A stretch of 64,000 nt of DNA from Microlunatus panaciterrae (GTDB lineage Bacteria > Actinomycetota > Actinomycetes > Propionibacteriales > Propionibacteriaceae), in assembly GCF_016907535.1 (NCBI RefSeq), contig NZ_JAFBCF010000001.1, positions 1,550,001 to 1,614,000 on the forward strand, read 5' to 3'. Position numbers and translations under genes: made by a program. Of the stretch, positions 2,421 through 38,267 are shown in pieces. Below the pieces are notes generated by a model that saw only the letters and a program-made list of their open reading frames with translations, had not been told where the DNA came from and searched no databases. How positions within the stretch are numbered: position 1 is the stretch's first letter; every line of letters starts with the position of its first letter.

Positions 2421-3275
2421 TTGCAATTCAAAGACTTGTGGGCGACGCTGCTGCGTCGCTGGTACCTCGTTCTGGTCGCCGTGATGATCACGATAGGCGC
2501 TTCGTCGGCAGTGGTCTTCCTCGTCGGGCCGACTTACGAGGCCAAGGGCTCGGTGCTGCTCATCCCACCGGGTACAACGGTATCCCAGGCCAACCCCTCC
2601 GGTACGCTCGGCAACCCCTTCCTTTCACTCGGCGGCCTCAACCAGGCACGCGACATCGTGGTCAACACGATGGCGTCGAAGTCGGTGTATGAGGACCTAT
2701 GCAACCACAAGGGTGACTCTTCTTACGAGCAGATGCGGGTGGAGCTGTGCAAGAGCCGCCCCGGCGTCTCGTACCAGGCCACTCCCGATTTCACCAGTAG
2801 CGCGCCGGTCATCCTCGTCACCGTTGAAGCAGACTCCTCGACCAACGCAGTCACCGCACTGCATGCCGTGATGGAACGAGTGCCCGCCACTCTGACCCAA
2901 CTGCAGTCAGATCTGGGTCTCAGGCCCAGAGCTGAGATCACGTCAATCCCGCTGGTGTCCGACGACCATCCGGATGCCGTGCACAAGACCCAGATCCGAG
3001 CGGGGATCGCTGCCGGCGCCGCCACGCTCGGCTTCGGCCTTCTCTTGATCGCCCTAGGGGAGGGACTGGTTGCCTCCAAGCGCACTCCCCGGCGGGCACG
3101 CGGGCTAGCAACCAGCCCGCGGCCGACTAGCACCGCGGAGAACCAAGAGAGAACGGGAGCTGACCTGAAGGTTGCTCGTGCCGGCGGTGTTGACCGAACG
3201 CAGCCTGCCAGCAGCAGATCTAGCCAGCTCGATCACAGCCCTGACTTGCGCAGCGTCGCGGCCGCACGAGACTAG
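2421..3275 (+). CDS. Wzz/YveK-like polysaccharide chain-length protein, no kinase domain
   Basis: 284 residues. TM1 lies near residues 15-35 (RRWYLVLVAVMITIGASSAV); a roughly 155-residue extracytoplasmic part contains AKGSVLLIPPGT, typical of the Wzz first beta strand; TM2 is near 193-213. A cytoplasmic tail of about 70 residues is basic and probably disordered, and there is no ATP-binding domain. The start is TTG at 2421 with a GGGGG ribosome site six bases upstream. It opens the plus-strand operon with the polymerase (8 bases downstream) and two glycosyltransferases, so it most likely sets the length of that polymer. A possible -10 (TATCTG) lies at 2396-2401. Confidence 0.8.
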   Translation: MQFKDLWATLLRRWYLVLVAVMITIGASSAVVFLVGPTYEAKGSVLLIPPGTTVSQANPSGTLGNPFLSLGGLNQARDIVVNTMASKSVYEDLCNHKGDSSYEQMRVELCKSRPGVSYQATPDFTSSAPVILVTVEADSSTNAVTALHAVMERVPATLTQLQSDLGLRPRAEITSIPLVSDDHPDAVHKTQIRAGIAAGAATLGFGLLLIALGEGLVASKRTPRRARGLATSPRPTSTAENQERTGADLKVARAGGVDRTQPASSRSSQLDHSPDLRSVAAARD

Positions 3276-7947: not shown

Positions 7948-8017
7948 TACGGTGACCCCCACGGCGCCGAGGCGGCGCTCTGACTGGCGCTGTCAGACTC
8001 GACGCAACTCACGGAAA

Positions 8018-9613
8018 TCACCGATCTCTTCCCACTTTCACTCGCGGAGGAGCGAGAAACCTGGCCCACTTCGATCTCCTGACAAATAGGGTCGCCTCTT
8101 CAATGACATCGCGCGCAACGAGTCGAACCAGAATCAGATGCACCGAAAAGACGACGACTCCGACAAGAGCCACGCCACCCATCGGCGGCAGTGCGGCGGT
8201 CAGAGACACCATGCCCCACCCGGAGGCACCCGTCACCCCGAGGGCAAGACACAAGAAGATGAACGGACGGGTGACGGTCCGTAAGTGGGTTTGTAGAAGA
8301 CGTGCGACGAGGAACCAACGGGCACTGGTAGCAGCAAAGGCGACGGCGAGGAAGGCCCACGCAACCGGCAGCAGCCCCCAGTGGACTGCAATGGCTGTGG
8401 CACTCACGGTGACGGCATCGATGATCACGGCATAGACGAACCAGACTCCGGGCTTGCCCGTCCCATAAAACAAGCCGTGATCAAGTGACGCACCTACGGT
8501 CAGCGTTCCCGCGAGAGCAAGGATCTGCGCCAGCTGAGAGCTGAGCGACCACCCATCACCGAAGACGATCGGGACGATGAGTGGCGCTGCCACTGCTACC
8601 ATGATCAGCGGCAGCGACAGCGCAGTGTACGTGACCCTTGAGGCTCGCAGATACGCACTAGTCAGGCGGGCGCGTGAGTCGCGGATCTTCGCGAACGCGA
8701 CCGTACTGACTGGAATGAGGGCACCACCAGTCAGCTCCTGAACGATGAGCACCAGCCGCTGAGCGATGCTCAAGTAGCCAAGCGCGGCCATTCCGAGAGA
8801 GGCTGAAACAATCGCCGCCTCAGCCCAAGCGCGGAGCACAGCCACGAACTCCACGCCCAGCACCTGACCACCGTATCGGGCCATCGTTATGAAGTCTCCG
8901 CGTGAGAAGACGAAACTCGGTCGCCACTTGGCCGCGATCCAAGCCAGGACGGACCCGACCAATCCGGACGCCAACGTCTGGCCAACCAGGGCCCAGGCCC
9001 CGAGCCCGGCGACGGCCATAATGATGGCGGCAACTTGGCCAATAACGGCCGAGATTGTCCCCTGACTAGCGATCGTCGCAAATCGCATCGACCTTCGCAG
9101 TAGCGCGTTCGGCACTGACGACAGCGCGGTGATCAGCATGCTCAAGGCAAGAACTTGCAGGATCGGCACCGTTTGAGAGCCGCGATAGACGAGGCCGAAA
9201 AGTGGGGCGATCAAGACAAGTGCTCCACCCAGGCCAAATCCGGCGACCGTCGAAAACCAGAAGCCTGTGCTGAGCAGACGTTGGTCTGCTCGGTCGGCCT
9301 GAACGATGTAGGCAGCGAAGCCGAAATCTGCGAGCAGGTAGAAGAAGGGCAACACCGTAGTCGCCGCGGCGACCGCACCGAAGTCTTCTGGGCTCAACAG
9401 TCGCGTGAGGATCGCGATAGTGACGAACCCCAAGAGTCGCGTCGCCCACTTCTGGATCGTGAGCCAGACCACCCCTGAAGCGGCCTGCTGGCTGACCGTC
9501 GCTCGGGGCGGATCACCTTGTCTAGCCAAGTCCTCATCGACTCCCACACCGTCGGCAGTTCCGCTCAGTGAGTACGAGGTTCCATCGTTCACGTCCGGCG
9601 CCGCCCCGCTCAT
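8018..9613 (-). CDS. Wzx-type oligosaccharide flippase (MOP superfamily)
   Basis: 531 residues with about twelve to fourteen hydrophobic helices. After a polar N-terminus of about 40 residues comes ASGVVWLTIQKWATRLLGFV and ILTRLLSPEDFGAVAA, the usual opening of PST/Wzx exporters (R-L-L-x-P-x-D-F/Y-G). It should move undecaprenyl-pyrophosphate-linked repeat units across the membrane. Its ATG at 9613 overlaps the stop of the upstream glycosyltransferase (ATGA), so it is coupled to it. A second Wzx sits at 33332-34789, which is one reason to think the window encodes more than one polymer. Confidence 0.9.
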   Translation of the reverse strand: MSGAAPDVNDGTSYSLSGTADGVGVDEDLARQGDPPRATVSQQAASGVVWLTIQKWATRLLGFVTIAILTRLLSPEDFGAVAAATTVLPFFYLLADFGFAAYIVQADRADQRLLSTGFWFSTVAGFGLGGALVLIAPLFGLVYRGSQTVPILQVLALSMLITALSSVPNALLRRSMRFATIASQGTISAVIGQVAAIIMAVAGLGAWALVGQTLASGLVGSVLAWIAAKWRPSFVFSRGDFITMARYGGQVLGVEFVAVLRAWAEAAIVSASLGMAALGYLSIAQRLVLIVQELTGGALIPVSTVAFAKIRDSRARLTSAYLRASRVTYTALSLPLIMVAVAAPLIVPIVFGDGWSLSSQLAQILALAGTLTVGASLDHGLFYGTGKPGVWFVYAVIIDAVTVSATAIAVHWGLLPVAWAFLAVAFAATSARWFLVARLLQTHLRTVTRPFIFLCLALGVTGASGWGMVSLTAALPPMGGVALVGVVVFSVHLILVRLVARDVIEEATLFVRRSKWARFLAPPRVKVGRDR

Positions 9614-11040
9614 GTCCGCACCGGCCTCGACCCGGCAACCTGCCTCAAGAGCCGGGCATGCGCCTCAACCATCACGTCCGAACTCAGCCAGGAACTGACG
9701 CTCGCCGACATAGCGACACGACGAGCTCGCCAATCATCGATCTCCCGACATATGTCGAGCACCGCCTGTTCGATCTGTGGCTGATTCGTCTGACTCGCTG
9801 CGCGACGCCGGGCGCGCCGGATGTCCGCGAGGGTGATGCTCTCCGCTGGGGCTGCCGGATTCTCACATAAGCGGCCTCGTTCCCCACTCACCCCGACCAG
9901 CTCAACGGCGCCTCCGACATCGGAAAGGATCAACGGAAGACCCGCCATCGCGGCCTCGGTTGCGGCCACCGGCCAGCCTTCGAAGAACGAGTCGAGAATG
10001 AAGGCGTCTGAAGCTGCCAAGATGGCCCGAGACGCCCCGAGGCCCATCAGATGGATGCGGCTTGCTGCAGGGTGGGAGCATCGGATGGAGTTGGCAAGAG
10101 CATGCTCAAGCCAATCCTCGATAGGCCCCGCGACGACCAGGTGAATGTCGTCGCGAACCTCGGCAGCACGAAGAAACGATGCGACCAAGCCCGGGATGTT
10201 CTTCTGCAAGTCATACCTCGCCAAGCAGACGAACACGATAGCGCCGCTGAGTTCAAGTTTAAGCACGGAGGCGAGCTTGGCCCGTGCTAGGTCTCTCTCT
10301 GCTGGATCGAGAGGGGCAAGCTTGACGCCGTTCGGAATCACGACGATGGGTGCGCCCGCGGGGCGAGGCATGTTGCGCGTGTGGAAGCTACGAACCTTCT
10401 GACTCACCGCGATGGTCACGGTAGCCATGTCGGTGAGCCACGCTTCGCGCTCCCAGCCATCTGCAGAAAGGTTGATGTCGGTGCTGTGGATCACCGGCAC
10501 AACCCGAAGGCCTCGACCGATGCACTCTTCAATGAGGTGGTCAGGGGCATTGTGGAGCTGAGCCAGAGCATTCTCGGGCAGTCCAGCGATGAAGTCTCTG
10601 GCCGTCTCGCGATCCGGTGCCTGGACGACCTCGATCTTGTCACGGCGTAGGCTATCGGCTGTCATGCCTCCAGCCTCGCAAAGCACGACGGTCCGTACTC
10701 CATGCTGAGGGAGTTCTCGGGCCAATGTCGCCACCACGGTCTCGACGCCTCCCGTGCCCAGCGTGCGTGTGACCAGCAGGACCAGGTCTTGTTGGCTGTC
10801 CAATGCGCTGGCCGAAGACGTTACGGACTCTCGGCTTGTCGTAACGTCATCCTGCAGACTGGCGAGCGGTGTCGACAGAATACGGTTGCGCAGCGAGCGG
10901 CCCACCCCGAAACGAAGTGGATCCGGGCCTGCATCGACGACTGCAGTCACCCGCCCAAGGACGACAGCCTGCACCTTAAAGGCGAGGCGGCGCAGGCGCA
11001 GGGCCACCGCACCACCCCAAATGGTCACTTGAGAAGTCAT
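9610..11040 (-). CDS. Glycosyltransferase family 4 with N-terminal extension
   Basis: 476 residues, about 80 longer than most GT4 enzymes because of an N-terminal extension. The GT-B fold begins near residue 83 (QDLVLLVTRTLGTGGVETVV, with the glycine-rich loop G-T-G-G-V-E). The donor domain has IVFVCLARYDLQKNIPGLVA near 265-285 and SFFEGWPVAATEAAMAGLPL near 350-370, containing the E-x7-E element. ATG start at 11040 overlaps the stop of the preceding GT4 gene, and its own stop overlaps the flippase start, so three genes are translationally chained. Acts at the cytoplasmic membrane in repeat-unit assembly; sugar unknown. Confidence 0.85.
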   Translation of the reverse strand: MTSQVTIWGGAVALRLRRLAFKVQAVVLGRVTAVVDAGPDPLRFGVGRSLRNRILSTPLASLQDDVTTSRESVTSSASALDSQQDLVLLVTRTLGTGGVETVVATLARELPQHGVRTVVLCEAGGMTADSLRRDKIEVVQAPDRETARDFIAGLPENALAQLHNAPDHLIEECIGRGLRVVPVIHSTDINLSADGWEREAWLTDMATVTIAVSQKVRSFHTRNMPRPAGAPIVVIPNGVKLAPLDPAERDLARAKLASVLKLELSGAIVFVCLARYDLQKNIPGLVASFLRAAEVRDDIHLVVAGPIEDWLEHALANSIRCSHPAASRIHLMGLGASRAILAASDAFILDSFFEGWPVAATEAAMAGLPLILSDVGGAVELVGVSGERGRLCENPAAPAESITLADIRRARRRAASQTNQPQIEQAVLDICREIDDWRARRVAMSASVSSWLSSDVMVEAHARLLRQVAGSRPVRT

Positions 11041-12272
11041 GCCTCCCCCGCTGGGCAGCGTCGATATCGCGCCGGATCCATCCGCCGACGCATCGAATCC
11101 GCCAGTTCTGGCACCTCGCGGTGGACGTCCCGCAACCAGGCAAGACGACCATACCGTTTGAACGACTGCTCGTAGACCGACGCCAACTGCCTCGACATGG
11201 CGTCCAGATTGAAACTCTTCACGGCGAATTCGCGACCGAAACGCCCCAGTTCTTCACGTTGCTCCGGGGAGTCGATCAGGTCCTTGAGCAGGTCAGCCAG
11301 ATTCTCTGGTGCATCCAATTGAGGTTCTGCACTCCAGAAACTTCTCCGGAAAAGACTCTTCGATGACTCGGGGCAAAAGAGCTCAGACGTACCCCACTCG
11401 CCCTGAACAACGAGCGGACGACCGAATGCGAGCGATCGTGCCCCGGAACCGCCCATTCCCAGCAGGATGTCCGCGCCTGCGTAGGCAGGTCCGGGATCTG
11501 CCATTGCGCCATGGAAATGCACGAGCGTCTTCGCAGCACTTCGATTGACGCGGCGACCCAGCTCGATCAGGCGGGCCTCCTCTGTGCCCGTTCCGACGAC
11601 CACCAGGGTCGCGTCATAGTCCGCGAGGTAGGTCATCGCACGAATCGCGGTCTCAACCGGGTACGCCTTCATCCACTTGTCAAGCCGCGAGACGATCACG
11701 ATGAGGTGCTTCCCTAGGTGATTGAGCCCCGACCTGAACTGCTCGGCAAGGTCACCGTTCGGAGCGTCAGAGGCAACGTCGACTGGCGGGCTGATCAGCG
11801 TCGTCGGGCCTGGCCGATTCCTCAACTCCTCCTGCAGATACCCGGTACCGATGATCAACGACGTGTGTTGATAGGTATCGGGCTCGACAAACATTTCATA
11901 AACTGTGTGGATAAACGGTCTGCGTCCCCAGCGACAGGGGCCCCAGAAGGCAGTTCGAGGCTCCGCGTCGGCTCCGTATACGTGGATGATGTCCGCGGCT
12001 ATGGATCGAGCGCGTTGCTCTAGCTCCTCTGCTCCCTTGATCAGGACTCCCCGAGCCCGTTGGTAAGTCTCGATCTTTACCCCTCGCGCTGAAGCGACAT
12101 CAAGCAGGCTGGGGCCGCCTGGGGGCAGAGTGTCCACCGGCCCGAAAAGGACGCTGCGATACCCGTAATCCTCAACTGCCATCGCAAAATCGACGGCGTT
12201 GATCTGTGTCCCGCCTAACGCGAGACTGCTCAGTTGGACGAGGACGGTCTTGGCCAAAGACATGTCAAGCAC
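11037..12272 (-). CDS. Glycosyltransferase family 4-like
   Basis: 411 residues. The N-terminus TVLVQLSSLALGGTQINAVD has the G-G-T-Q-x-N form of GT4 acceptor domains; KHLIVIVSRLDKWMKAYPVE near residue 185 and the segment YAGADILLGMGGSGARSLAF near 265-285 form the donor site, but the classic E-x7-E pair is replaced by small residues (G-M-G-G-S-G-A-R-S), as in some distant GT4 members. The start is GTG at 12272, placed directly after the aminotransferase stop (TGAGTG); ATG at 12263 is an alternative. It is coupled to the next GT4 by an ATGA overlap. Confidence 0.78.
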   Translation of the reverse strand: MLDMSLAKTVLVQLSSLALGGTQINAVDFAMAVEDYGYRSVLFGPVDTLPPGGPSLLDVASARGVKIETYQRARGVLIKGAEELEQRARSIAADIIHVYGADAEPRTAFWGPCRWGRRPFIHTVYEMFVEPDTYQHTSLIIGTGYLQEELRNRPGPTTLISPPVDVASDAPNGDLAEQFRSGLNHLGKHLIVIVSRLDKWMKAYPVETAIRAMTYLADYDATLVVVGTGTEEARLIELGRRVNRSAAKTLVHFHGAMADPGPAYAGADILLGMGGSGARSLAFGRPLVVQGEWGTSELFCPESSKSLFRRSFWSAEPQLDAPENLADLLKDLIDSPEQREELGRFGREFAVKSFNLDAMSRQLASVYEQSFKRYGRLAWLRDVHREVPELADSMRRRMDPARYRRCPAGEA

Positions 12273-13397
12273 TCATTCGCAGACGCCGTCGTGGAAGCCC
12301 AGCGCGGGTGTCAGCGCTCGGACGACCTGCTCCTGTTGTGATTGCGAGATGTGAGGGAACAGCGGCAATGAAAGTATCTGCCTGGCCGCCCGCTCTGCGA
12401 TGGGGAAGGATCCTTCGCCAAGCCCCATTGCGGCGTAGGCCTGAGTCAGGTGCAGCGGATGCGGATAATGGATCCCGGCTCCGATGCCAGCGTTGTGCAG
12501 CTCGGCGAGGAGGCGATCACGTTCCTCTACACGGACAACGTACAGATGCCAGACATCGAGGTTTCCGGGCATCGACTTGGGCAACCGAACGCCGGCAACC
12601 TCTGACAGCAGATCGCCATAGCGAGCGGCGGCGACCCGCCGGGCCTCGTTCCAACGAGCAAGCCGCTTGAGCTTGGCGTTCAGCACTACAGCCTGGATGG
12701 TGTCCAGGCGGGAGTTCATCCCCACAACCTCATGGACGTACTTCTTGCTCGATCCGTGCGCAGCGATCAGCCGGACACGCTCCGCGATTTCCGCGTCCTG
12801 GGTGGTTACAGCGCCGGCATCGCCGGCGGCACCGAGATTCTTGCCCGGATAGAAGCTGGTTCCTGCGGCTCTGCCCAAGCCTCCCGCATACCGCCCGAAC
12901 CGTGTCGCTCCCTGGGACTGAGCGGCGTCTTCGACGATGGCCGCACCGACGGACTCGGCGATCTCGGTGAGCTGCTCCACTGGTGCCACCTGCCCGAAGA
13001 GGTGGACCGGAACGATGGCCTGCGTCCGACTGTTGACCGCCTCGGCGACCCGGGCCGGATCGATCAGCAGGTATTCGTCGTCGACGTCGACTAGCACGGG
13101 GGTTGCGCCGATCCTCGACACCGCCTCGGCGGTGGCGATGAACGTGTTGGCTGGGAGCACAACTTCGCCTCCTGCCGTGACGCCGACAGCACGCAGCGCG
13201 AGTTCCAAGGCGTCTGTCCCGTTGGCAACCCCGACACAGTAGGCGGCCTCCGTCTGCTCCGCGTAACCGTTCTCGAACTCGGCGACCGGTTTGCCGCCGA
13301 TGAAGGCGGTGTCGGCGAACACCTCGGCCAGGCCCTCCTGGACTTCAGCGTCGATCTCTCGCATCTGCGCTGCGAGGTCCACCAATGGAATGTTCAC
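12273..13397 (-). CDS. DegT/DnrJ/EryC1/StrS sugar aminotransferase (WbpE/FdtB-like)
   Basis: 374 residues, full family length. The opening IPLVDLAAQMREIDAEVQEG and the FIGGKPVAEFENGYAEQT segment are those of nucleotide-sugar 3- or 4-aminotransferases. ANGTDALELALRAVGV binds PLP phosphate, VEDAAQSQGA holds the Asp and Gln contacting the pyridine ring, and the Schiff-base lysine is in SFYPGKNLGAAGDAGA near residue 185. It transfers an amino group, normally from glutamate, to a keto-sugar nucleotide. Its start is GTG 28 bases after the carrier-protein stop. The WbpE-like look plus the WbpD-like acetyltransferase at 19505 suggest a 3-amino sugar, but the 3-oxidase that would be needed is not in the window. 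It could instead act on a product of the adjacent carrier-protein module. Confidence 0.88.
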   Translation of the reverse strand: MNIPLVDLAAQMREIDAEVQEGLAEVFADTAFIGGKPVAEFENGYAEQTEAAYCVGVANGTDALELALRAVGVTAGGEVVLPANTFIATAEAVSRIGATPVLVDVDDEYLLIDPARVAEAVNSRTQAIVPVHLFGQVAPVEQLTEIAESVGAAIVEDAAQSQGATRFGRYAGGLGRAAGTSFYPGKNLGAAGDAGAVTTQDAEIAERVRLIAAHGSSKKYVHEVVGMNSRLDTIQAVVLNAKLKRLARWNEARRVAAARYGDLLSEVAGVRLPKSMPGNLDVWHLYVVRVEERDRLLAELHNAGIGAGIHYPHPLHLTQAYAAMGLGEGSFPIAERAARQILSLPLFPHISQSQQEQVVRALTPALGFHDGVCE

Positions 13398-13425
13398 GTC
13401 ATGACTACTTTCTCTTCGTCGTGGC

Positions 13426-13695
13426 TCATGATTCGCTGTCGACCTTGGTGTCTACGAACGCCGTCAGCGAACCAACCGTCTCGAAGATGTCTCCGGTGAA
13501 CTCGGCATCGTCGACCACGATGCCGAAGCGGTCTTCCAGGCCCGACACGAGATCGAGCAGCGCAAGGGAGTCGAGTTCCGGCATGCTGCCGAAGAGAGGC
13601 GTCGACTCATCCACAGTGCCGATCCGGTCCTCGATTCCTAGCGTCTCGGCAAGGACGGCCTTAACACCTTCGAGGCTTTCGGTGGTCACAGTCAT
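13426..13695 (-). CDS. Acyl carrier protein
   Basis: 89 residues from ATG at 13695, which has an AAGGA ribosome site six bases upstream; an ATG six codons earlier is less likely. It has the four-helix carrier-protein pattern (VKAVLAETLGIED, LLDLVSGLEDRFGIVV, VGSLTAFVDTKV) with the phosphopantetheine attachment serine in MPELDSLALLDLV near residue 44, where DSL is the usual motif. It lies 24 bases after the decarboxylase and 28 before the aminotransferase. A stand-alone carrier between an AMP-ligase and a LysA-fold decarboxylase points to a carrier-bound amino acid, as in butirosin (BtrI) and vicenistatin (VinL) pathways. It needs a phosphopantetheinyl transferase from elsewhere. Confidence 0.9.
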   Translation of the reverse strand: MTVTTESLEGVKAVLAETLGIEDRIGTVDESTPLFGSMPELDSLALLDLVSGLEDRFGIVVDDAEFTGDIFETVGSLTAFVDTKVDSES

Positions 13696-13719
13696 GATGT
13701 TCCTTCCATTCATTTCCAG

Positions 13720-14940
13720 CTAGACAAGTACTTCTGCGGGAGCCGGGTGCCCGAGAAAGGCGGTAGGGCTCGCGGTCAGGCCGTAGGCGCCGGCCTGGAA
13801 GATGACGACCAGATCCCCGATCTCGGCCGGCGGCAGACGGACGCCGCTGCCGAGCAGGTCGAGGGGGGTGCACAGGCACCCGACCACCGTTTGCTTCGCG
13901 TCGGCTGGCTCATCGATCCGATTACCTATCGCCAACGGGTAGTTGCGACGGATCACCTGACCGAAGTTTCCCGATGCGGCAAGCTGGTGATGCAGCCCTC
14001 CATCGACGATCACGTACTCCTCACCGCGGGACGTCTTCCTGTCCACGACCCGGGTCACATACACACCGCACTCACCGACGATGTAGCGGCCCAGCTCGAT
14101 CACGGTCCGGGCTTCCGGCAGTTCTGTCGCAATCACGCCATCCACCAGAAAAGCAAGGTTGGCACCGATCGCACCCAGATCGAGAGGTTGGTCTTTCTCG
14201 AAGTACGGGATACCGAAGCCGCCGCCCAGGTTGACGTAGCGCACCGGCCAGGGCGACTTGTCGGCAAGCGAAAGGATGAGGTCCACCGTCTTGCGTTGCG
14301 CGGCGACGAGGATCTCGGCACTCAAGTTCTGCGAGCCAGCGAACACGTGGAATCCGAGCATGTCGACATCCGCGGCCGCCAGGTTGGCCATTAGGTCGGG
14401 CACCTGTTCCGCGTCGATCCCGAACTGCTGTGGTCCCCCGCCCATCCGCATTCCTGATCCCTTCACCCGGAAGTCAGGGTTCACCCGGATCGCCGCTCGT
14501 GGTCTGAGCCCAAGATGATCTCCCGCCTCGACGACGCGACGGGCTTCGTTCTCCGACTCCATCTCGATGGTCACGCCGGCGGCGACGGCTTGGCGGATCT
14601 CAGGCACCGTCTTGCCCGGTCCGGCGAAGCTGACGTGGGATGCGGGCATGGGCGTGTCCAGCGCCACCTGCAGTTCCCCGGCGGATGCCACATCGATCGA
14701 GTCGACCAAACCGGCCAGGTGCTGGACAACGGCCGGCATGGGGTTGGCCTTCATGGCATAACTGAGGTTCAGCCGCTCCGGCAGCGTCGACCTCAGCAGG
14801 CCGATCCGCTCAGTCAACAAGCCGCGATCGTAGGCAAAGAAGGGTGTCGAGCCGACTCTTGCCGCTAGACGACTGATGGGCTGGCCACCGAGAGCGAGCT
14901 GTCCGTCGACTGTACCGAAGGCGGCAATGACGGCGCTCAC
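13720..14940 (-). CDS. Fold-type III PLP-dependent decarboxylase (LysA/BtrK/VinO-like; exosortase-A-associated type)
   Basis: 406 residues. The PLP lysine is in LSYAMKANPMPAVVQHL near residue 63; FHVFAGSQN, YVNLGGGFGIPYFE, ELGRYIVGECGVYV, the catalytic cysteine in VVGCLCTPLDLLGSG near 345, and GAYGLTASPTAFLGHPAPAE at the C-terminus follow the order of diaminopimelate/ornithine decarboxylases. The family also includes BtrK and VinO, which decarboxylate amino acids bound to a carrier protein, and the decarboxylase of proteobacterial exosortase-A loci. Its GTG start overlaps the stop of the AMP-ligase (GTGA) and the carrier-protein gene follows 24 bases later. So the likely substrate is an aminoacyl-S-carrier, giving a decarboxylated amino-acyl or amine unit. 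A free amino acid substrate cannot be excluded. Confidence 0.88.
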   Translation of the reverse strand: MSAVIAAFGTVDGQLALGGQPISRLAARVGSTPFFAYDRGLLTERIGLLRSTLPERLNLSYAMKANPMPAVVQHLAGLVDSIDVASAGELQVALDTPMPASHVSFAGPGKTVPEIRQAVAAGVTIEMESENEARRVVEAGDHLGLRPRAAIRVNPDFRVKGSGMRMGGGPQQFGIDAEQVPDLMANLAAADVDMLGFHVFAGSQNLSAEILVAAQRKTVDLILSLADKSPWPVRYVNLGGGFGIPYFEKDQPLDLGAIGANLAFLVDGVIATELPEARTVIELGRYIVGECGVYVTRVVDRKTSRGEEYVIVDGGLHHQLAASGNFGQVIRRNYPLAIGNRIDEPADAKQTVVGCLCTPLDLLGSGVRLPPAEIGDLVVIFQAGAYGLTASPTAFLGHPAPAEVLV

Positions 14941-16517
14941 GACGTGAGCTCCCGCTTCAAGAGAGCACGGTCGAACTTTCCGTTGGGCGAGCGAGGCAGC
15001 TGCTCGCGCACGACCACCGTGGCAGGGACCATATAGAGAGGCAACGTCCGCTTCATGGCAGCGAGCAGACCGGTGGTATCGAGCTCTGCGCCGCTCGCCG
15101 GCGATGCAACCAACACGATGCGATGCCCCAGTCGCGGATCGTCCAGCCCTAGCGCGACAGCGTCACGCACCATCCCCGTGTCGTAGGCGACCTCTTCGAT
15201 CTCGGTCGGGCTGACCCGATAGCCCGAGGTCTTGATCATTTCGTCCTTGCGACCGACGAAGTACAGAAATCCTTCCTCATCCTCGACCACAGCATCACCG
15301 GACCACACCGCGATTTCGGGCGTGCGCCAGTCGGTCGTCGTGCCGGGAGCCGGCCGGAACCGTTCAGCGGTCCGTTCCGGATTGTTCCAGTAACCCAACG
15401 CCACCAACGGTCCCCGATGAACCAGCTCGCCCTCCTCCCCGGGCTCGCATCGTGATCCATCGGCGCGTGCCACGATGATCTCCGCGTTAGGGATGGCCTT
15501 GCCAATCGAGTCCGGCCGGCGGTCGACCTCCGCAGGATCGAGGAAGGTCGAACGGAAAGCCTCAGTGAGCCCGTACATGAGGTAGGGCTTGGCTGCAGGG
15601 AAGTGACTCCTGAGCCGGTCCAGCGTGGCCTTCGGCATCCGCCCCCCGGTGTTAGCGAAATAGCGCATCGTCTGCGCCACCTCAGCTGGCCAGGCCAGGT
15701 CAGCGATTTGGATCCAGAGTGGCGGCACACACGTCAGCCCCGTCACCTGGTGCTTTGCACACAGGCGCACCACATCGCCCGGCACCAGATAGTTCATCAG
15801 GATCGTGTGCGCGCCCACGCTGAAAGCGGTCGTCAACTGGCTGAACCCGGCGTCGAAGCTCAGGGGCAGCGCTGACAAGATCACGTCCGACTCGGTGTTC
15901 TCCAGATAGGAACTCACGCTCTCGGCACCGACGATCAGGTTCCGATGACTGAGGACGACTCCCTTGGGCTTGCCGGTGCTGCCCGATGTATACAGAATCG
16001 CCGCCATGTCCAGGTCCACGCCGGCGCTGCCGGACGGTTGATCACTGTAGGACGGCTGACACATCTCCGACCAGCCGTGCACGGCATAGTCAGCTGCAAA
16101 CGCTTGACCCATTTCCTCACGAGCATCGACCAAGATCACGTGTTCGAGCGCCGGGCATCCCTTGAGCGAATCGCCCAGCAAGGCCAACCGTTCAGGACTG
16201 GTGACCAGGACACGGACGTCGCAGTCCGCGAGGATGTAGGCCACCTGGGGCGGACGCAGAAGGTGGTTGACCGGCACGAAGACCGCCCCCGCAGCCGAGG
16301 CTCCGAAGATCGCCACCACAGTTTCGATCCGCTTGTCCAGATAGACCGCCACTCGGTCATCGCGCTGCAACCCGATGCCGGTCAAGCCGGCGGCCACGGT
16401 CTTCACCTCGAGCCACAGCTCGTGATAACTACAGGTACGGTCCTTGTAGGTCAGCGCGTTGGCGTTGCCGCGCCGGACCGCCGACTCCTCGAGCAGATGG
16501 TGGAGTTTTGTTCTCAT
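14937..16517 (-). CDS. AMP-forming acyl/aminoacyl ligase (exosortase-A-associated type)
   Basis: 526 residues from ATG at 16517; the frame is open for 52 more codons but that part overlaps the dehydrogenase gene, whereas the ATG leaves a 14-base gap. All core ANL motifs are present: ILYTSGSTGKPKGVVLSH (P-loop, near residue 160), YLMYGLTEAF, WSGDAVVEDEEGFLYFVGRK, DEMIKTSGYRVSPTEIEEV (hinge), and the catalytic lysine in PRSPNGKFDRALLKRE at the end. It adenylates a carboxylate and should load it on the carrier protein at 13426 or on CoA. The overlapping decarboxylase downstream implies a joint pathway. Similar ligase/decarboxylase pairs are known in PEP-CTERM exopolysaccharide loci of Proteobacteria, but no exosortase is seen here. 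Confidence 0.88.
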   Translation of the reverse strand: MRTKLHHLLEESAVRRGNANALTYKDRTCSYHELWLEVKTVAAGLTGIGLQRDDRVAVYLDKRIETVVAIFGASAAGAVFVPVNHLLRPPQVAYILADCDVRVLVTSPERLALLGDSLKGCPALEHVILVDAREEMGQAFAADYAVHGWSEMCQPSYSDQPSGSAGVDLDMAAILYTSGSTGKPKGVVLSHRNLIVGAESVSSYLENTESDVILSALPLSFDAGFSQLTTAFSVGAHTILMNYLVPGDVVRLCAKHQVTGLTCVPPLWIQIADLAWPAEVAQTMRYFANTGGRMPKATLDRLRSHFPAAKPYLMYGLTEAFRSTFLDPAEVDRRPDSIGKAIPNAEIIVARADGSRCEPGEEGELVHRGPLVALGYWNNPERTAERFRPAPGTTTDWRTPEIAVWSGDAVVEDEEGFLYFVGRKDEMIKTSGYRVSPTEIEEVAYDTGMVRDAVALGLDDPRLGHRIVLVASPASGAELDTTGLLAAMKRTLPLYMVPATVVVREQLPRSPNGKFDRALLKRELTS

Positions 16518-16531
16518 TTCATACCCCCTGC

Positions 16532-17920
16532 CTATTTCCTGCCCAGCGCGCGGTAGGTCCAGCCCGCCGCACGCCAGAGTGCCGGGTCCAGGGCGTTGCG
16601 ACCGTCGAGCATTCTCGGCACTTTCACGCATTGCCTCAGGGCGGCCGGGTCGAGGCGGACGTATTGTTTCCACTCCGTCAGCAGAAGCACCAGCTCAGCG
16701 CCTGCGGCCGCCTCCTCGACAGTGCTCACGAAGGTGAGGTCCGGCCACTTTGCTGAGGCGTTGTCGATCGCCTGCGGATCCGTGACGACGACGTCAGCAC
16801 CCTGCAGCGACATCTGTGCCGCAACGCTCAGGGCCGGCGAGTCACGGACGTCATCGCTCTCGGGTTTGAAGGCTGCGCCCAACACGGCTATCCGACGCCC
16901 GACGATGGATCCGTCACACACCTCACGAGCCAGGTCGACCATCCGCACCCGGCGACGCATGTTGATTGAGTCCACCTCCCGGAGGAAGGTGAGGGCCTGG
17001 TCGACACCCAGCTCGCCGGCTCTGGCCATGAAGGCACGGATGTCCTTGGGCAGGCAGCCACCGCCGAAACCGAGTCCGGCATTGAGGAACTGCCGACCGA
17101 TGCGGACATCGTGGCCGATCGCGTCGGCCAGCTGCGTGACGTCGCCACCCGTTGCCTCACAGAGCTCGGCCATGGCATTGATGAAGGAGATCTTCGTTGC
17201 CAGGAAGGAATTCGCTGCCACCTTGACCAGCTGCGCGGTGGTGTAGTCCGTGATCACCTGCGGAGTGCCTTCGGCCAGGGTCTTGGCGTACACCTTGTTG
17301 AGAGTGGCCACAGCCTGTGCACCAGCCTCATCCTCAGGCACCCCGTACACCAGCCGGTCCGGGTGAAGTGTGTCGTGAACCGCATGCCCCTCCCGCAGGA
17401 ACTCGGGGTTCCAGACCAGGGTGGCGGCAGGCTCCGTGGCGGTGATCTGAGCCGCCAGCCGCTCAGCGGTTCCAACAGGAACCGTGGACTTGCCGACGAC
17501 CAGATCTCCCGGCTTCAGATAGGGCAGCAACGTGGCCACCGCAGCATCAACATGGCGAAGGTCGGCCGAGTTTTCTCCCCGCTTCTGCGGCGTTCCGACG
17601 CAGATGAAATGAACGGTTGCCCGCGCAACGGACGACGGTGCGCTCGAGAACGTCAGCTTCCCCGTGCTCATGGCATCGGCAAGGAAGTCAGGTAGCTGTG
17701 GTTCGAAGAAGGGCGCCTCCGCACGCGACAGCCTCTCGATCTTGGCAGCGTCGACATCAAACCCGACCACCTCGTGTCCGAGGGTGGCCATGCATGCCGC
17801 GTGCACAGCCCCGAGGTAGCCGCAGCCGATCACCGAGATGCGGCAGGCCGGATGGTCTCGGCCCGTCATGTCCAGCTGCTTCGGCCTCGTGCGATCGCGC
17901 TGCGGCCTCTTCGGCGTCAC
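16532..17920 (-). CDS. ugd: UDP-glucose/GDP-mannose dehydrogenase family; probable UDP-glucose 6-dehydrogenase
   Basis: 462 residues. The NAD-binding glycine loop is GCGYLGAVHAACMATLG near residue 31; HFICVGTPQ and VVGKSTVPVGTAE are Rossmann elements; NPEFLREGHAVHDTLHPDRL and the catalytic cysteine in GFGGGCLPKDIRAFM near 280 are those of UDP-glucose 6-dehydrogenase. It oxidises UDP-glucose to UDP-glucuronate with two NAD+. The GTG start at 17920 overlaps the stop of the GT4 upstream (GTGA); ATG at 17869 would also give a complete enzyme. Its presence makes a uronic acid in the polymer likely. A second dehydrogenase of the family, of the WecC type, is at 42365. Confidence 0.9.
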   Translation of the reverse strand: MTPKRPQRDRTRPKQLDMTGRDHPACRISVIGCGYLGAVHAACMATLGHEVVGFDVDAAKIERLSRAEAPFFEPQLPDFLADAMSTGKLTFSSAPSSVARATVHFICVGTPQKRGENSADLRHVDAAVATLLPYLKPGDLVVGKSTVPVGTAERLAAQITATEPAATLVWNPEFLREGHAVHDTLHPDRLVYGVPEDEAGAQAVATLNKVYAKTLAEGTPQVITDYTTAQLVKVAANSFLATKISFINAMAELCEATGGDVTQLADAIGHDVRIGRQFLNAGLGFGGGCLPKDIRAFMARAGELGVDQALTFLREVDSINMRRRVRMVDLAREVCDGSIVGRRIAVLGAAFKPESDDVRDSPALSVAAQMSLQGADVVVTDPQAIDNASAKWPDLTFVSTVEEAAAGAELVLLLTEWKQYVRLDPAALRQCVKVPRMLDGRNALDPALWRAAGWTYRALGRK

Positions 17921-19308
17921 CGAGGGCTCCGCTCAAGGATGAATCGTCTGAGTTCTGCGCTGTCGGCGAGATCGACATAGCGGTTCTCGATGCTGTTCGA
18001 TGCGGCCTGGGGCGACCTCTCGGGCTCATCGGTCTCCGCTGCCTGAGGGACGCGCCCCGACAGGGCGTCATAGACGTTGAGGTACTTCTCCGACTGCGGC
18101 CGCCAGTCGAGCTCACGGGAGACGCGCTCTCGCGCCCGCAGCCCCATCTCGAGACGCAGGTCGGGGTCGTCGAGGAGAAGCTCGACGGCGTCGGCGAAGG
18201 CGTTCACATTTCCGGACTCGACATAAAGGACAGCATCGCCACCTGACACCCGTGTCTCCACCAGGTCGAAGGAGACCGAGGGAAGTGCATAGGCCATGTA
18301 TTCCATCGTCTTGTTCATGGTGGAGACGTCATTCAGCGGCGTCTTGAGATCAGGGCACAGGCCGACGTCCGCTGCACTCAGATGCTCGGCGATCATCTTC
18401 TTGTCCGCTCTACCGGTGAAGACCGTGTGCGACTCCAGGTCCAGGGCGATCGCCTTCTGTCGCAACTCCTCGAAGCAGTCCCCGAAACCGAGCAACGTGG
18501 CATGGACGTCTGTCCGCCCACGCCGATGGACGAGCTCGTGCATCACGTCGAGGACGATGTCGACGCCGTCCTGCGGACCCATGATCCCGAGGTAGACCAG
18601 GGAGAACTGACGGGGACCGGCGGGTTTGGCCTGCGGATATATGGGCCGCATCTCCTGGGTGTCAGGACCACTCCTGACGACCGTAACCTCCTCGGCACGA
18701 CGCCTGCCCCTGCTGAGAGCGATGGCCTTGTACGACTCGTTCGTGGAGATGATCCTGTCAGCCGTCCGATAGGTCATCCGCTCGAGCCACAGCAGCCCGT
18801 GATACTCGATCTTTTCCCTCATGCCCTTCGGGGCACCGAACCGCGAGAGGAAGAGCTCGGGGTTGAGGTCGTGTTGGTCAAACACGAACTTGACGCCTCG
18901 ACCGCGCCAGAGCCTGGCCAGCAACCAGAAGGTGTCCGGTGGGTTACACGCCTGCATGATGTCGATCGGGCGGCGTTGCCACACCTGCGTCGAGAGCCAC
19001 GCCGTGCACAACCAGCTGTAGACGAACTCGACGACGAAGCCGATCAGACCGTGGGCCTCGGGTGCAGGACGGTATTTGTAGATGTGCACACCATCGATCT
19101 GCTGCCGATCAGGGTCGCCTGGCCCCTTGGGACAGATCACGCTCACGTCATACCCCCGAGCGATCAGGGCATGGCACTCCAGCCACACCCGTCGGTCGAG
19201 TGGGACCGGCAGGTTCTGCACGATGATCAGGACATGGGCGCCCAGAGCACGCCTGCCGTCGGGCGCAACGTCGGATGGACGCTGCGGAGCAAAGCCACGT
19301 TCAGTCAT
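17917..19308 (-). CDS. Glycosyltransferase family 4 (WcaI/WbuB-like)
   Basis: 463 residues. The GT-B fold starts at residue 25 (AHVLIIVQNLPVPLDRRVW) with ECHALIARGYDVSVICPKG; FVFDQHDLNPELFLSRFG near 160 is typical for transferases that use large membrane-bound acceptors. The donor part has FSLVYLGIMGPQDGVDIVLD near 240 and PLNDVSTMNKTMEYMAYALP near 340, where the nucleotide-sugar site has an M-N-K-T-M-E-Y pattern. The C-terminal 35 residues are polar and probably disordered. Starts with ATG at 19308, 196 bases after the acetyltransferase gene, and is coupled to ugd. Confidence 0.85.
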   Translation of the reverse strand: MTERGFAPQRPSDVAPDGRRALGAHVLIIVQNLPVPLDRRVWLECHALIARGYDVSVICPKGPGDPDRQQIDGVHIYKYRPAPEAHGLIGFVVEFVYSWLCTAWLSTQVWQRRPIDIMQACNPPDTFWLLARLWRGRGVKFVFDQHDLNPELFLSRFGAPKGMREKIEYHGLLWLERMTYRTADRIISTNESYKAIALSRGRRRAEEVTVVRSGPDTQEMRPIYPQAKPAGPRQFSLVYLGIMGPQDGVDIVLDVMHELVHRRGRTDVHATLLGFGDCFEELRQKAIALDLESHTVFTGRADKKMIAEHLSAADVGLCPDLKTPLNDVSTMNKTMEYMAYALPSVSFDLVETRVSGGDAVLYVESGNVNAFADAVELLLDDPDLRLEMGLRARERVSRELDWRPQSEKYLNVYDALSGRVPQAAETDEPERSPQAASNSIENRYVDLADSAELRRFILERSPR

Positions 19309-19504: not shown

Positions 19505-20098
19505 TCAGTCGCTCCCCCGGCTCTCACTCGACACGAGCTCCCTCAACACCGTTTGGCACTGGGCGTACTCCCGACCGCAGACGCAGTGCAGGTCCGGGTC
19601 GAGCCGCTCGCCGCACTCACAGACCCAACCGATCTGTCGAGCCGGGTTGCCGACCATGAAGGCATGCGCCGGGACGTCCGTGATCACCACTGCGCCGGCA
19701 CCGATGAAGGCGTGTTCGCCGATGGTGGTCCCACAGACCACGACGACGCCGGCCCCGAGAGTTGCGCCTCTCCTGACCTCGGTGCGCGACAGCGCGTCGC
19801 CGCTACGTTTGATGTGGGCACGTGGCCGTAGATCATTCGTGAAGATGACGCCTGGGCCGAGGAAGACGTCCTCGGCGATGGTCACCCCATCGAAGATCAT
19901 CACCTGGTTCTTGATCGTCACCCGGTCGCCGACGACCACTCCGCCTTCGATGAAGGCGCTGTCGCAGACGTTGCAGTCCCGGCCGACCCGCGCTCCCGAC
20001 AGGATGTGGGCGAACGCCCAAACCCGCGTGCCAGCCCCGACGTCCGTGCTTTCGCACAGCCCGCTCGGGTGCACAGAGACACCGTCCAGTCCCACCAT
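19505..20098 (-). CDS. Left-handed beta-helix N-acetyltransferase, WbpD-like, with C-terminal Cys-rich tail
   Basis: 197 residues from ATG at 20098, which has a GGGGGG ribosome site; the frame extends upstream but that part is not conserved. Hexapeptide turns run through the protein (VHPSGLCESTDVGAGTRVWA, ARVGRDCNVCDSAFIEGGVV, GATLGAGVVVVCGTTIGEHA, FIGAGAVVITDVPAHAFMVG). FTNDLRPRAHI and NPARQIGWVCECGERLD are close to WbpD/WlbB, which acetylate the 3-amino group of UDP-2-acetamido-3-amino-glucuronate, and to the FdtC/QdtC type. The end carries C-E-C-G and C-V-C-G, a possible zinc ribbon. It fits the WbpE-like aminotransferase at 12273 in the same operon. Confidence 0.85.
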   Translation of the reverse strand: MVGLDGVSVHPSGLCESTDVGAGTRVWAFAHILSGARVGRDCNVCDSAFIEGGVVVGDRVTIKNQVMIFDGVTIAEDVFLGPGVIFTNDLRPRAHIKRSGDALSRTEVRRGATLGAGVVVVCGTTIGEHAFIGAGAVVITDVPAHAFMVGNPARQIGWVCECGERLDPDLHCVCGREYAQCQTVLRELVSSESRGSD

Positions 20099-20447
20099 GG
20101 TCGCCCCCCGACAACACTTGGGATCTTCATATCCGCAAACGCTCGACCAGTCGCACTGCGTGTCGCACAACTGCCTGTCGAGCGTTATCTTCCCACGCCT
20201 GACCCGCACTGGAAAGAGTGTTTGGCAACAGTACGCACAAAAGTGTCATTCGGACATCCCGGCGTTCGCCGGCCGGCGGGGAGCAGCCTCCGACACACGA
20301 CGTCACGATTTGATCTCGGCGCCCAGGCCCAGATAACAGAAGCGCTACGCTGTGCGTGCTTGGTAGAGACGTCATCAGACGGTCTCGCCGGCGGGGGAAG
20401 CAGGCCCGTCCTAGACGGGATTCGGGGGATTTCGGGGGAAATCACAG
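20099..20447. promoter_or_regulatory. Divergent promoter region between acetyltransferase and phosphoglycosyltransferase genes
   Basis: 349 bases without a supported gene. It separates the minus operon (first gene starts at 20098) from the plus gene at 20448. A TACGCT hexamer at 20345-20350 is a plausible plus-strand -10, without a convincing -35. Two direct copies of GGGGGATTT/GGGGGAAAT lie just before the plus-strand start, the second acting as ribosome site. Promoter calls are by eye and tentative. Confidence 0.35.
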
Positions 20448-22091
20448 ATGGCACGTCCTTTGGGCACCTCTTTTTCGGGTGCTGGAGCGAAGCATGTCAA
20501 CCGCACCGGGCAGCCGGCTCATGATCAGCTGCACCGGGGTCTGGTCCGAGGAGACACCGGGCCCAGCCGGGTCCGGACCGGCAGCGAACCGACGACGCGA
20601 CCCTCACCGCGGTCGGACCCCCGCCCGGAGCGCCCAATCGAGCGTCGACCGTCCACCGAGGGCCAGCTCGCCGGGACGGCGCGTACGCGGTTCAGTGACT
20701 GGAGCAGGCGCTACGTCCAGGCCCTGACCGGTCTCGATGCCGTCGTCGGCCTGGCCGCGGTTCTCCTCGCGCTCTCCGGCCTCCTCTGGGACATCGACCT
20801 CGCGCCGACCGCCGCGATCATCGCCAGCGCCGCTGCCGGGGCCGTGCTCTGGCCCCTGCTCATCGCCGCCTCCCGTGGGTACGAGCGGAGGTCGGTGGGG
20901 GTCGGCAGCGACGAGATGCGCGCCGTGCTCCGGGCCGGCGTGTGCGTCGTCGTCGGTGGCGCGTTCATCGCCGGCATCGCGGAGAACATGGTCCTGCTGA
21001 CGTTGGTCGTCACCTCCGTACCGCTGGCCACCGTGGGTAGCGTCGCGATGCGTTACGCCGCCCGCAAGTATCTGCATCGCCGCCAGCGTCAGGGCGAGAG
21101 CGTACGCAACGTGATCATCGTCGGCACACCGTTCGCCGCCGCCCACCTGGCCGCGCTGGTCGAGCGCGAGCCGCAGTGTGGCATGACGGTCGCCGGCGTC
21201 TGCGTGCCGGCGGCCGACATCGCCCGGGCCCGCGAGCTCGGCCTGAACGTGCTCGGTGACCTCGACCATGTGACCGCGGTCGTCTCCGAGTTCGGCTGCG
21301 ACGGCGTCGCCGTCACGACAGGTGACGCCACCCGCAACAGCTTCCTGCGCCAGCTCGCCTGGTCACTGGAGGGGATGGACGTCGAGTTGCTGGTGCATCC
21401 CGGGCTCGTCGAGGTGGCCGGACCGCGCATGCATATCCGTCCCTATGTCGGTCTGCCGTTGCTGCACATCGAGCAGCCGCACTTCACCGGCTGGCGCCGG
21501 ATCGTCAAGCGTGGCACCGATCTGGTGCTGACCGGCGTCGGCCTGGTGCTCATCTCCCCCGTCCTGCTGGCGATCGCGCTGGCGATCAAGTGCCAGGATC
21601 GTGGCCCCGTGTTGTTCCGCCAGACCCGGGTGGGCATCGACGGGCAGCCGTTCACCATGTACAAGTTCCGGTCGATGGTGCTCAACGCCGAGGAGCGACT
21701 GGCCGAGCTCAAGGCGCTCAACGAGGGCGCCGGGCCGCTGTTCAAGATGACAGAGGACCCCCGGATCACCCGGGTCGGTCGGTTCCTGCGCAAATACTCC
21801 CTCGACGAGCTGCCCCAGCTGCTGAACGTGCTCAACGGCACCATGTCGCTAGTCGGGCCCCGGCCGCCGCTCCAGTCCGAGGTGGACGAGTACGCCGACG
21901 AGGCGCACCGCCGGCTGCTGGTCCAGCCCGGTCTGACCGGCTTGTGGCAGGTCAGCGGACGCTCCCTGCTGAGCTGGGAGGAGACGGTCCGTCTCGATCT
22001 CCGCTATGTGGAGAACTGGACCCTCACCTTCGATTTGTTGATCTTGTGGAAGACGGTCTTCGCTGTGCTGGCACAGCGCGGAGCCTACTGA
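20448..22091 (+). CDS. Polyprenyl glycosylphosphotransferase, WbaP/WcaJ type (initiating enzyme)
   Basis: 547 residues. A polar N-terminus of about 85 residues is followed by four hydrophobic helices (about 95-210), a CoA-binding-like Rossmann domain (VRNVIIVGTPFAAAHLAALV near 225) and the catalytic PGT domain from residue 345: [76 protein letters not shown], with the D-E pair of the active site in LDEL. It transfers a sugar-1-phosphate to undecaprenyl phosphate, starting repeat-unit synthesis. ATG at 20448 has a GGGGGAAAT ribosome site. A tyrosine phosphatase follows 57 bases later. A second, smaller initiating enzyme is at 56571. Confidence 0.92.
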   Translation: MARPLGTSFSGAGAKHVNRTGQPAHDQLHRGLVRGDTGPSRVRTGSEPTTRPSPRSDPRPERPIERRPSTEGQLAGTARTRFSDWSRRYVQALTGLDAVVGLAAVLLALSGLLWDIDLAPTAAIIASAAAGAVLWPLLIAASRGYERRSVGVGSDEMRAVLRAGVCVVVGGAFIAGIAENMVLLTLVVTSVPLATVGSVAMRYAARKYLHRRQRQGESVRNVIIVGTPFAAAHLAALVEREPQCGMTVAGVCVPAADIARARELGLNVLGDLDHVTAVVSEFGCDGVAVTTGDATRNSFLRQLAWSLEGMDVELLVHPGLVEVAGPRMHIRPYVGLPLLHIEQPHFTGWRRIVKRGTDLVLTGVGLVLISPVLLAIALAIKCQDRGPVLFRQTRVGIDGQPFTMYKFRSMVLNAEERLAELKALNEGAGPLFKMTEDPRITRVGRFLRKYSLDELPQLLNVLNGTMSLVGPRPPLQSEVDEYADEAHRRLLVQPGLTGLWQVSGRSLLSWEETVRLDLRYVENWTLTFDLLILWKTVFAVLAQRGAY

Positions 22092-38260: not shown

Positions 38261-38267
38261 TCCCCCT

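Follow-up and report, generated by a model that had tools for sequence, protein, structure and literature searches.

The locus considered here raises the question of what an amino acid bound to a carrier protein would do among the genes for a surface polysaccharide. It lies in a window of 64,000 nucleotides of Microlunatus panaciterrae (contig NZ_JAFBCF010000001.1, positions 1,550,001 to 1,614,000; positions below are those of this window unless stated otherwise), from a genome that consists of one contig of 4.07 Mb and is 99.78% complete. An AMP-forming ligase (14937-16517) that would load an amino acid on a carrier, a pyridoxal phosphate (PLP)-dependent decarboxylase of the LysA/BtrK fold (13720-14940), a stand-alone carrier protein (13426-13713) and a DegT/DnrJ/EryC1 sugar aminotransferase (12273-13397) follow one another there on the minus strand. 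We propose, with a probability of about 0.6, that a small amine-bearing acid is made on the carrier and handed to a sugar of a surface polysaccharide by a tandem-GNAT protein, here called C3, whose gene lies 2.6 kb left of the window.

Profile matches gave the identities of the four genes. The ligase scored 769 bits against TIGR03098 (curated cut-off, 592.35) and 275 bits against the Pfam AMP-binding family, and the decarboxylase scored 578 bits against TIGR03099 (curated cut-off, 478.45) as well as 114 and 60 bits against Orn_Arg_deC_N and Orn_DAP_Arg_deC, making both enzymes members of the respective TIGR families. The carrier matched PF00550 with 33.6 bits and has its phosphopantetheine serine in a PELDSL motif, the pattern P-E-[LF]-D-S being visible in all 26 printed rows, that of the window among them; the aminotransferase matched PF01041 with 360 bits. 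A first-pass annotation of this DNA had described four coupled genes with a GTGA overlap and gaps of less than 30 bases. The coordinates and the bases confirm this placement, as the GTGA is common to the ligase stop and the decarboxylase start, the decarboxylase and carrier genes are 6 bases apart, those of carrier and DegT 28 bases, and DegT is followed by the next gene with no gap. Coupling held for the trio of ligase, decarboxylase and carrier and failed for DegT, which was ruled out as a core member since its cluster was present in only 8 of the 38 sources of our neighbour clustering. As DegT is no regular companion of the trio, we took the unit to be the trio together with genes outside the window. 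The four genes are part of a collinear minus-strand run (20209-6835) that encodes, in order, a hexapeptide transferase, a family 4 glycosyltransferase (GT4), a nucleotide-sugar dehydrogenase, the ligase, decarboxylase, carrier and DegT, two GT4-like proteins, a flippase and a further GT4. Of the operon content previously listed, the flippase and the sugar dehydrogenase were recovered, and in place of five glycosyltransferases we found four of the GT4 type, one of them just below the cut-off.

Relatives of this system were collected by a scan of a genome collection, in which the best of 576 confirmed relatives made up 80 named loci. These were classed by content, with labels given after viewing tables that also list C3, as 29 glycan-type, 5 polyketide synthase (PKS)-type, 45 proteobacterial and 1 unclassed; L059, on a contig of 5.9 kb, was left out of the classes. 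Glycan-type hosts were Mycolicibacterium, Micromonospora, Nakamurella, Microbacterium, Agromyces, Nocardioides and others, along with Rhizobiales, and PKS-type hosts were Herbidospora, Amycolatopsis, Nonomuraea and Streptomyces. Glycan genes surround the window trio, and at least one homologue of a window glycosyltransferase, polysaccharide-export or sugar-dehydrogenase gene scored above 60 bits in 27 of the 29 glycan-type loci, which bears out the placement in a polysaccharide locus made in the first-pass annotation. That annotation had also suggested looking for the same trio in other glycan loci; ligase, decarboxylase and carrier indeed occur together in 27 of the 29, the other two being L060, cut by a contig end, and L069, which has no neighbouring ligase. 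A carrier gene on the strand of the decarboxylase was present in all 29. A ketosynthase was found by Pfam in all three PKS-type loci scanned and by motif in four of the five. In the tree, the glycan-type and PKS-type rows group with L059 in one clade, which has 37 tips and a support of 0.925. Three Mycobacterium-type loci (L039, L051 and L068) have an extra protein between decarboxylase and carrier; its L051 row, of 315 residues, had no Pfam match and matched an MptN-type glutamate ligase weakly (18.6 bits; cut-off, 350).

The neighbour clustering also surfaced C3, a protein of about 290 residues encoded beside the ligase. C3 was present in 27 of 29 glycan-type loci versus none of the 5 PKS-type and none of the 45 proteobacterial loci, and its gene immediately precedes that of the ligase, on the same strand, in 18 of the 29, as read by eye from the table. 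The two glycan-type loci without it have C3 elsewhere in the genome; for L056, it probably shares the contig of the trio, at a distance of about 11 kb. Genome-wide searches found C3 in none of the 5 PKS-type genomes and in 1 of 10 proteobacterial genomes tested (of 45). Within a class sample of 394 genomes, the decarboxylase occurred in 15 and C3 in 14, all of them among the 15; in these 14 the two genes share a contig, at distances of 45 to 16358 bases. In the one genome with the decarboxylase and no C3, G671, the stretch that encodes ligase and decarboxylase also has a ketosynthase motif. A phylum sample of 396 genomes held the decarboxylase above cut-off in 2 and C3 in 3, with both in the same 2 genomes. 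In M. panaciterrae, C3 is a single-copy gene at 1546508-1547365 of the contig (about -3498 to -2632 in window numbering), and together with a family 2 glycosyltransferase (GT2) and a deacetylase it occupies 2.6 to 5.2 kb left of the window. The GT2 belongs to PF00535 and has relatives in 10 glycan-type loci, and the deacetylase-type gene, about 1 kb from C3, scored 301 bits against the profile of its cluster (C4), two homologues of which carry PF01522. Thus, the likely transfer step, comprising C3, GT2 and deacetylase, lies left of the window and beyond the view of the first-pass annotation.

Sequence searches with C3 returned no Pfam match for the two rows scanned, no NCBIfam family, TIGR03019 (pep-cterm_femAB) included, for four of four rows (three at an E value of 0.01 and the own-genome copy at 0.001), and no match in the PDB up to an E value of 10. 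Its fold was predicted with AlphaFold2 from the Micromonospora row and an alignment of 20 rows, at a pLDDT of 91.2 and a pTM of 0.87, and the best PDB matches of this model in Foldseek were tandem GNATs, such as 2ozg (E value, 1.4e-10) and Eis, and N-myristoyltransferases, at a probability of 1.00. From this fold and the gene neighbourhoods, it appears likely that C3 takes the acyl group from the carrier. A sequence relationship to the GNAT of exosortase A (XrtA) loci was rejected, as profile comparison gave a probability of 0.1% and no sequence link. Beside C3 in L122 (16440-19289) stand two adjoining beta-helix/DUF4082-type proteins with near-identical C-terminal stretches, whose cluster was present in 15 of 38 sources.

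Gene trios of this kind are best known from natural products, and the trio could accordingly make a small diffusible product, that is, a lipopeptide, a peptide or a polyketide starter, having come to lie in glycan loci by chance or as a mobile block. Its close relatives do stand in PKS clusters (5 of the 80 loci), relatives in Burkholderia cenocepacia are accompanied by KAS III-like and acyl-CoA dehydrogenase genes, and AfcQ, AfcP and AfcK make a lipopeptide, according to the accessible text of the report (PMC12186527). The window system resembles VinN/VinL/VinO (vicenistatin), FlvN (fluvirucin) and AfcQ/AfcK/AfcP (AFC-BC11) in its AMP-forming ligase, stand-alone carrier and PLP decarboxylase, a likeness that for VinO, AfcP and AfcQ was drawn without direct sequence comparison. 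Unlike these systems, it comes with glycosyltransferases, a flippase, a deacetylase and a GNAT in place of a PKS or peptide chain, and no ketosynthase motif, the sign of the type I PKS of macrolactam starter systems, was found within the 64-kb window. Together with the presence of C3 in the glycan-type loci versus its absence from all PKS-type loci, and with the glycan genes of 27 of the 29, this makes a diffusible product unlikely. The B. cenocepacia cluster was considered as afc itself and this was not established; the Arg-to-Lys spacing is 191 versus 192 from the AfcQ numbers in the text available (PMC12186527), and no citrate synthase was seen among the ten open reading frames (ORFs) scanned.

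The proteobacterial loci lead to protein sorting. NCBIfam lists both TIGR03098 and TIGR03099 as hypothetical equivalogs, "exosortase A system-associated", and the likeness to the exosortase-A pair, which had been offered as a parallel, proved closer than that, the two families being the same. As had been stated for this locus, no exosortase accompanies them here: PF09721 had no match in the genome of M. panaciterrae and was above cut-off in none of 22 glycan-type genomes tested (of 29), one reaching 22.0 bits against a cut-off of 25.7. As at the window, the ligase of XrtA loci adjoins the decarboxylase, a carrier is present in part of them, and a GNAT cluster and a deacetylase-like cluster occur in 14 and 9 of 44, respectively (the single row of each that was scanned matched PF13480 and deacetylase families). 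The window differs from them in that it has no exosortase and no XrtA hydrolase among its annotated neighbours, the carrier lies downstream on the same strand, and C3 replaces the XrtA GNAT with no detectable sequence similarity. The amine-bearing acyl group could thus be a linker, its sugar-borne amine accepting the C terminus of a protein, as the linking sugar of the Vim pathway does in type IX secretion. This is consistent with the finding that 7 of 7 proteobacterial genomes tested (of 45) were positive for exosortase; against it stand the exosortase-free glycan-type genomes and the secreted-looking beta-helix proteins of the loci, on which no common C-terminal sorting tail was seen by eye, and we consider it improbable. 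An extended form of this idea is a speculative one, to which we give little weight: the trio, that of exosortase loci included, would make a beta-aminoacyl (perhaps oligo-beta-alanyl) group whose sugar-borne amine is the acceptor joining sorted surface proteins, with actinobacteria and rhizobia using the tandem GNAT and a transpeptidase other than exosortase.

Returning to C3-mediated transfer to a polysaccharide sugar, we looked at what might supply the acceptor. Of the 29 glycan-type loci, 21 contain a polysaccharide deacetylase homologue scoring above 200 bits; 11 of the 45 proteobacterial loci contain weaker homologues, at 39-98 bits. A precedent comes from Porphyromonas and Tannerella, where VimE, a putative deacetylase, and VimA have been proposed to swap the C-2 acetyl group of a Wbp-type sugar for Ser or Gly, and exchange of vimA changed the amino acid, as described in the sections available (PMC7468200). 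Our system is similar in combining a deacetylase and a putative N-acetyltransferase-type protein, an amino acid that would be placed on a sugar amine, and candidate Wbp-type sugar genes; it differs in carrier-bound decarboxylation, which the accessible part of that report does not describe for Vim (PMC7468200), and in that C3 has no TIGR03019 match. The M. panaciterrae genome has genes that, judged by family, might serve a Wbp-type diamino-uronic sugar: a sugar dehydrogenase, a MocA oxidoreductase, and genes of the DegT and PglD-type hexapeptide kinds. Left of the window lie a MocA oxidoreductase, an epimerase/dehydratase, a second DegT and a PglD-type transferase, and, combined with the window dehydrogenase, these left-flank genes could be suited to making a Wbp-like sugar. 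A deacetylated sugar amine is slightly favoured as the acceptor. GNAT folds accept many acceptors, so C3 might instead act on a lipid, on a teichoic-type polymer or on a protein, acylating it much as D-alanylation does; given that glycosyltransferases and a polysaccharide deacetylase often stand alongside, such an acceptor seems decidedly doubtful.

The most compact form of the system was found on plasmids. Thirty-three plasmid records held the decarboxylase at an E value of 1e-90 or better, and 31 (27 Sinorhizobium, 3 Rhizobium and Aureimonas) held C3 at 51-55% identity, the genera and numbers matching those of the decarboxylase; the Burkholderia and Sphingomonas plasmid records with decarboxylase had no C3 match. 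In Sinorhizobium meliloti CP050561, C3 (annotated as hypothetical), ligase, decarboxylase, carrier, GT2 and polysaccharide deacetylase are collinear within 5.7 kb, and all 27 matching S. meliloti megaplasmid records, Rm41 and SM11 included, hold this block at 96% identity or more. The GT2 of the block is similar to the window GT2 at 4633-5637 (200 bits) and not to the one that neighbours C3 in M. panaciterrae. Aureimonas has C3, ligase and decarboxylase in a collinear arrangement, with the carrier encoded on the opposite strand about 1 kb upstream. The Nod factor set NodC, NodB, NodA and NodF comprises a GT2, a deacetylase, an N-acyltransferase and a carrier protein. The S. meliloti block recalls this set, but with an aminoacyl in place of a fatty acyl donor, and the two C3 rows scanned gave no sign of NodA, having no Pfam match.

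C3 also occurs apart from the trio. In G030 and in Nitrosomonas marina it directly adjoins a carrier gene, with no ligase or decarboxylase in the stretch viewed. The G030 genes stand with a 2-oxoacid-dehydrogenase-like pair, and the N. marina cluster (L139), separate from the ligase/decarboxylase locus L075 of that genome, comprises C3 and carrier together with both XrtA hydrolases, a MaoC/SDR gene and an FkbH gene (313 bits; cut-off, 147). FkbH enzymes attach glyceryl units to carriers, and the gene set of L139 hints at an exchangeable acyl supply. Remote relatives of C3 (22-31% identity) are encoded directly after a deacetylase in Sulfitobacter, beside an HAD-IIIC protein, GT2 and deacetylase in Paludibaculum, and, at 26% identity, on a plasmid of Rhizobium sp. 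T1470 (L143, 6887-12155), where an SDR, an adenylate-forming enzyme and an annotated CmlS-type halogenase belong to the same gene run. A strict tie to a carrier does not seem to hold for these remote relatives. Considered with the carrier-only neighbourhoods, they indicated that the link of C3 to a deacetylase or an activated-acyl supply is wider than its link to this trio.

We then turned to the chemistry on the carrier. With the ligase pocket fragment (residues 200-335), VinN was the best PDB match (3wv4, 41.8 bits, top of 7). Ligase D222 aligned with VinN Asp230 and R322 with VinN Arg331, where letter counts gave chain positions 246 and 347, each differing by 16 from the residue number used in the literature. 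For VinN, the text available (PMC11253843) describes D230 as coordinating the beta-amino group and K330/R331 as key residues of a loop. Both D222 and R322 were present in 72 of 72 family rows (28 glycan-type, the window included, 3 PKS-type and 41 proteobacterial) and in none of 5 paralogue rows of the own genome; rows were ORFs above 350 bits and longer than 450 residues, and seven paralogue loci gave five usable rows, two of which are the same gene. The VinN-type enzyme AfcQ activates L-Asp, and docking placed its equivalent Arg on the alpha-carboxylate, leaving the side-chain carboxylate to be activated, according to the portion of the report at hand (PMC12186527). On these aligned residues, aspartate is the favoured substrate, though not a result, and an aspartate-like acid is put at roughly even odds.

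The best solved relatives of the decarboxylase were BtrK (251 bits), 6knh (164 bits) and LysA 2p3e (142 bits). BtrK of the butirosin pathway, the nearest, is named L-glutamyl-[BtrI ACP] decarboxylase (ACP, acyl carrier protein), that is, an enzyme of a carrier-bound amino acid. The first-pass annotation had drawn on BtrK- and VinN-like chemistry, and the two halves of the comparison agree with it, BtrK being best for the decarboxylase and VinN for the ligase pocket. Butirosin itself differs from the window system in its ATP-grasp loading enzyme and aminoglycoside acceptor. Where visible LysA rows carry CE[ST][GS]D, the decarboxylase family has CTPLD, and the printed alignment shows CTPED in BtrK and CTPKD in 6knh at the same place. 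CTPLD was visible in 30 of 31, 5 of 5, 41 of 45 and 22 of 22 rows of four groups (the counts list the four commonest forms per group), and of six LysA-type rows (L033 doubtful), four were visible and three had the CE motif. In related free-substrate enzymes, this motif place binds the far end of the substrate; loss of the acidic LysA motif agrees with a side chain that is engaged in a thioester. Carrier-bound decarboxylation is, then, very probable, and it has been demonstrated for VinO (PMC11284099), as it has for AfcP, which decarboxylates carrier-loaded Asp to beta-Ala (PMC12186527), in the accessible parts of these papers. A conventional decarboxylase of free diaminopimelate, lysine or ornithine, as its shared fold family and 218 bits against the LysA family TIGR01048 might suggest, is a highly implausible identity for the enzyme and was ruled out, since that score is under the cut-off of 297.9, CTPLD replaces the LysA motif as it does in BtrK, and a separate LysA (443 bits) is encoded at 369-371 kb of the genome, about 1.2 Mb away. 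A sister clade of decarboxylases (L011-L032), 22 loci from one family of the phylum, scored 407-424 bits, under the TIGR03099 cut-off; it shares CTPLD, as CCTPLD[MSTK]F, and a ligase-like neighbour was present in the four stretches viewed.

Taken together, we infer the substrate, the acceptor, the order of steps and the final charge of the product as follows. The ligase would activate the side-chain carboxylate of an acidic amino acid, with L-aspartate or a near relative as the likeliest choice, and attach the acid to the phosphopantetheine of the stand-alone carrier. The decarboxylase would strip the alpha-carboxylate from the bound acid to give a beta-alanyl-type acyl-carrier, and C3 would move the acyl group to a sugar amine, which may arise by removal of the N-acetyl group from a newly added amino sugar, as the linked deacetylase and GT2 suggest. 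The glycan would then be flipped and polymerised with the free primary amine retained, and might be the zwitterionic polymer proposed in the first-pass annotation.

Several observations weigh against this proposal. The distribution of C3 is judged against class labels that were given with C3 in view; two of the glycan-type loci (L064 and L081) show no glycan gene by the seeds used, and strong deacetylase homologues are absent from the loci beyond the 21. The hypergeometric value of 7.6e-25 for the class sample ignores relatedness, the 14 genomes falling in 4 genera. In M. panaciterrae, a distance of 16 kb separates C3 from the trio and the strands are opposite, so that co-regulation is uncertain. 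TM-scores of the C3 model in Foldseek were moderate (0.36-0.59 by query length) at 9-16% identity. Sixteen plasmid records hold remote relatives of C3 but, at the threshold applied, not this decarboxylase, and the gene tables of the three stretches viewed (Sulfitobacter, Paludibaculum and Rhizobium), which are incomplete, list no carrier; because of these relatives, our confidence that C3 draws on the carrier was lowered slightly. For the ligase, the full-length protein meets gramicidin synthetase chains first in the PDB, with scores summed over several stretches, ahead of VinN chain 3wvn (217 bits), and the VinN-type pocket residues F231 and K330 are not kept, being A223 and F321 in the window ligase, which leaves room for methyl-Asp, Glu or some other acid besides Asp. 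Four S. meliloti records have a decarboxylase match in two pieces or at 62% coverage, from either sequencing error or a broken gene. Hexapeptide transferases and DegT could build and acylate an amino sugar with no part for C3, and the literature consulted describes no assayed enzyme of the glycan-type clade.

The remaining genes around the trio fit a polysaccharide locus. On the minus strand, upstream of the ligase, are the nucleotide-sugar dehydrogenase (16532-17920; TIGR03026, 401 bits; cut-off, 190), a GT4 (17917-19308; PF13692, 70 bits) and a hexapeptide (LbH) acyltransferase resembling NeuD/PglB/VioB (19505-20209; PF00132, 65 bits; TIGR03570, 74 bits, below the cut-off of 161). Downstream of DegT, on the same strand, are a probable, weakly matching GT4 (11037-12272; PF13692, 26.9 bits; cut-off, 27), a GT4 (9610-11040; 54 bits), a Wzx-type flippase (8018-9613; PF13440, 216 bits) and a GT4 (6835-7962; 99 bits). 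The plus strand encodes a GT2 (4633-5637; PF00535, 61 bits), whose cluster was in 17 of 38 sources, a Wzy-type polymerase or O-antigen ligase (3284-4636; PF04932, 40 bits) and a bacterial sugar transferase (20448-22091; PF02397, 235 bits). A minus-strand protein of 224 residues (1607-2278) is conserved in 10 of 38 sources and had no NCBIfam match, one homologue being without a Pfam match; its profile also picked up the Wzz at 2421-3275 (48 bits). To the right, a second polysaccharide gene set (32915-40660) comprises flippase, GT2, Wzy-type and Wzz/AAA-type genes. Three near-identical tandem copies of 258 bases (29107-29873, 99% match) lie inside a minus-strand ORF of 1804 residues (27554-32968) with a signal-like N terminus; the plus-strand ORF of 1561 residues opposite it is Arg-rich and looks like a shadow. 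A secreted-looking protein of 866 residues with PKD and beta-propeller matches (22898-25495) has a C-terminal stretch resembling that of the 1804-residue ORF.

The chemistry of the trio in natural products, both catalogued families, and sugar deacetylation with N-aminoacylation from Vim were already known; what is new is the combination, its independence from exosortase and the C3 family, as far as the open-licence literature searched goes, in which neither family names nor gene sets led to a recognised description of the module. TIGR03098 and TIGR03099, named only after a sorting system, occur without exosortase in actinobacterial and rhizobial genomes, and a specific reaction can now be proposed for them. 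They are tracked by C3, a predicted acyltransferase family with no Pfam or NCBIfam match in the rows scanned. The starter-unit chemistry of natural products would in this way be joined to the acylation of surface glycans, and since S. meliloti carries the whole set in one 5.7-kb block, the proposal is testable in a tractable symbiont.

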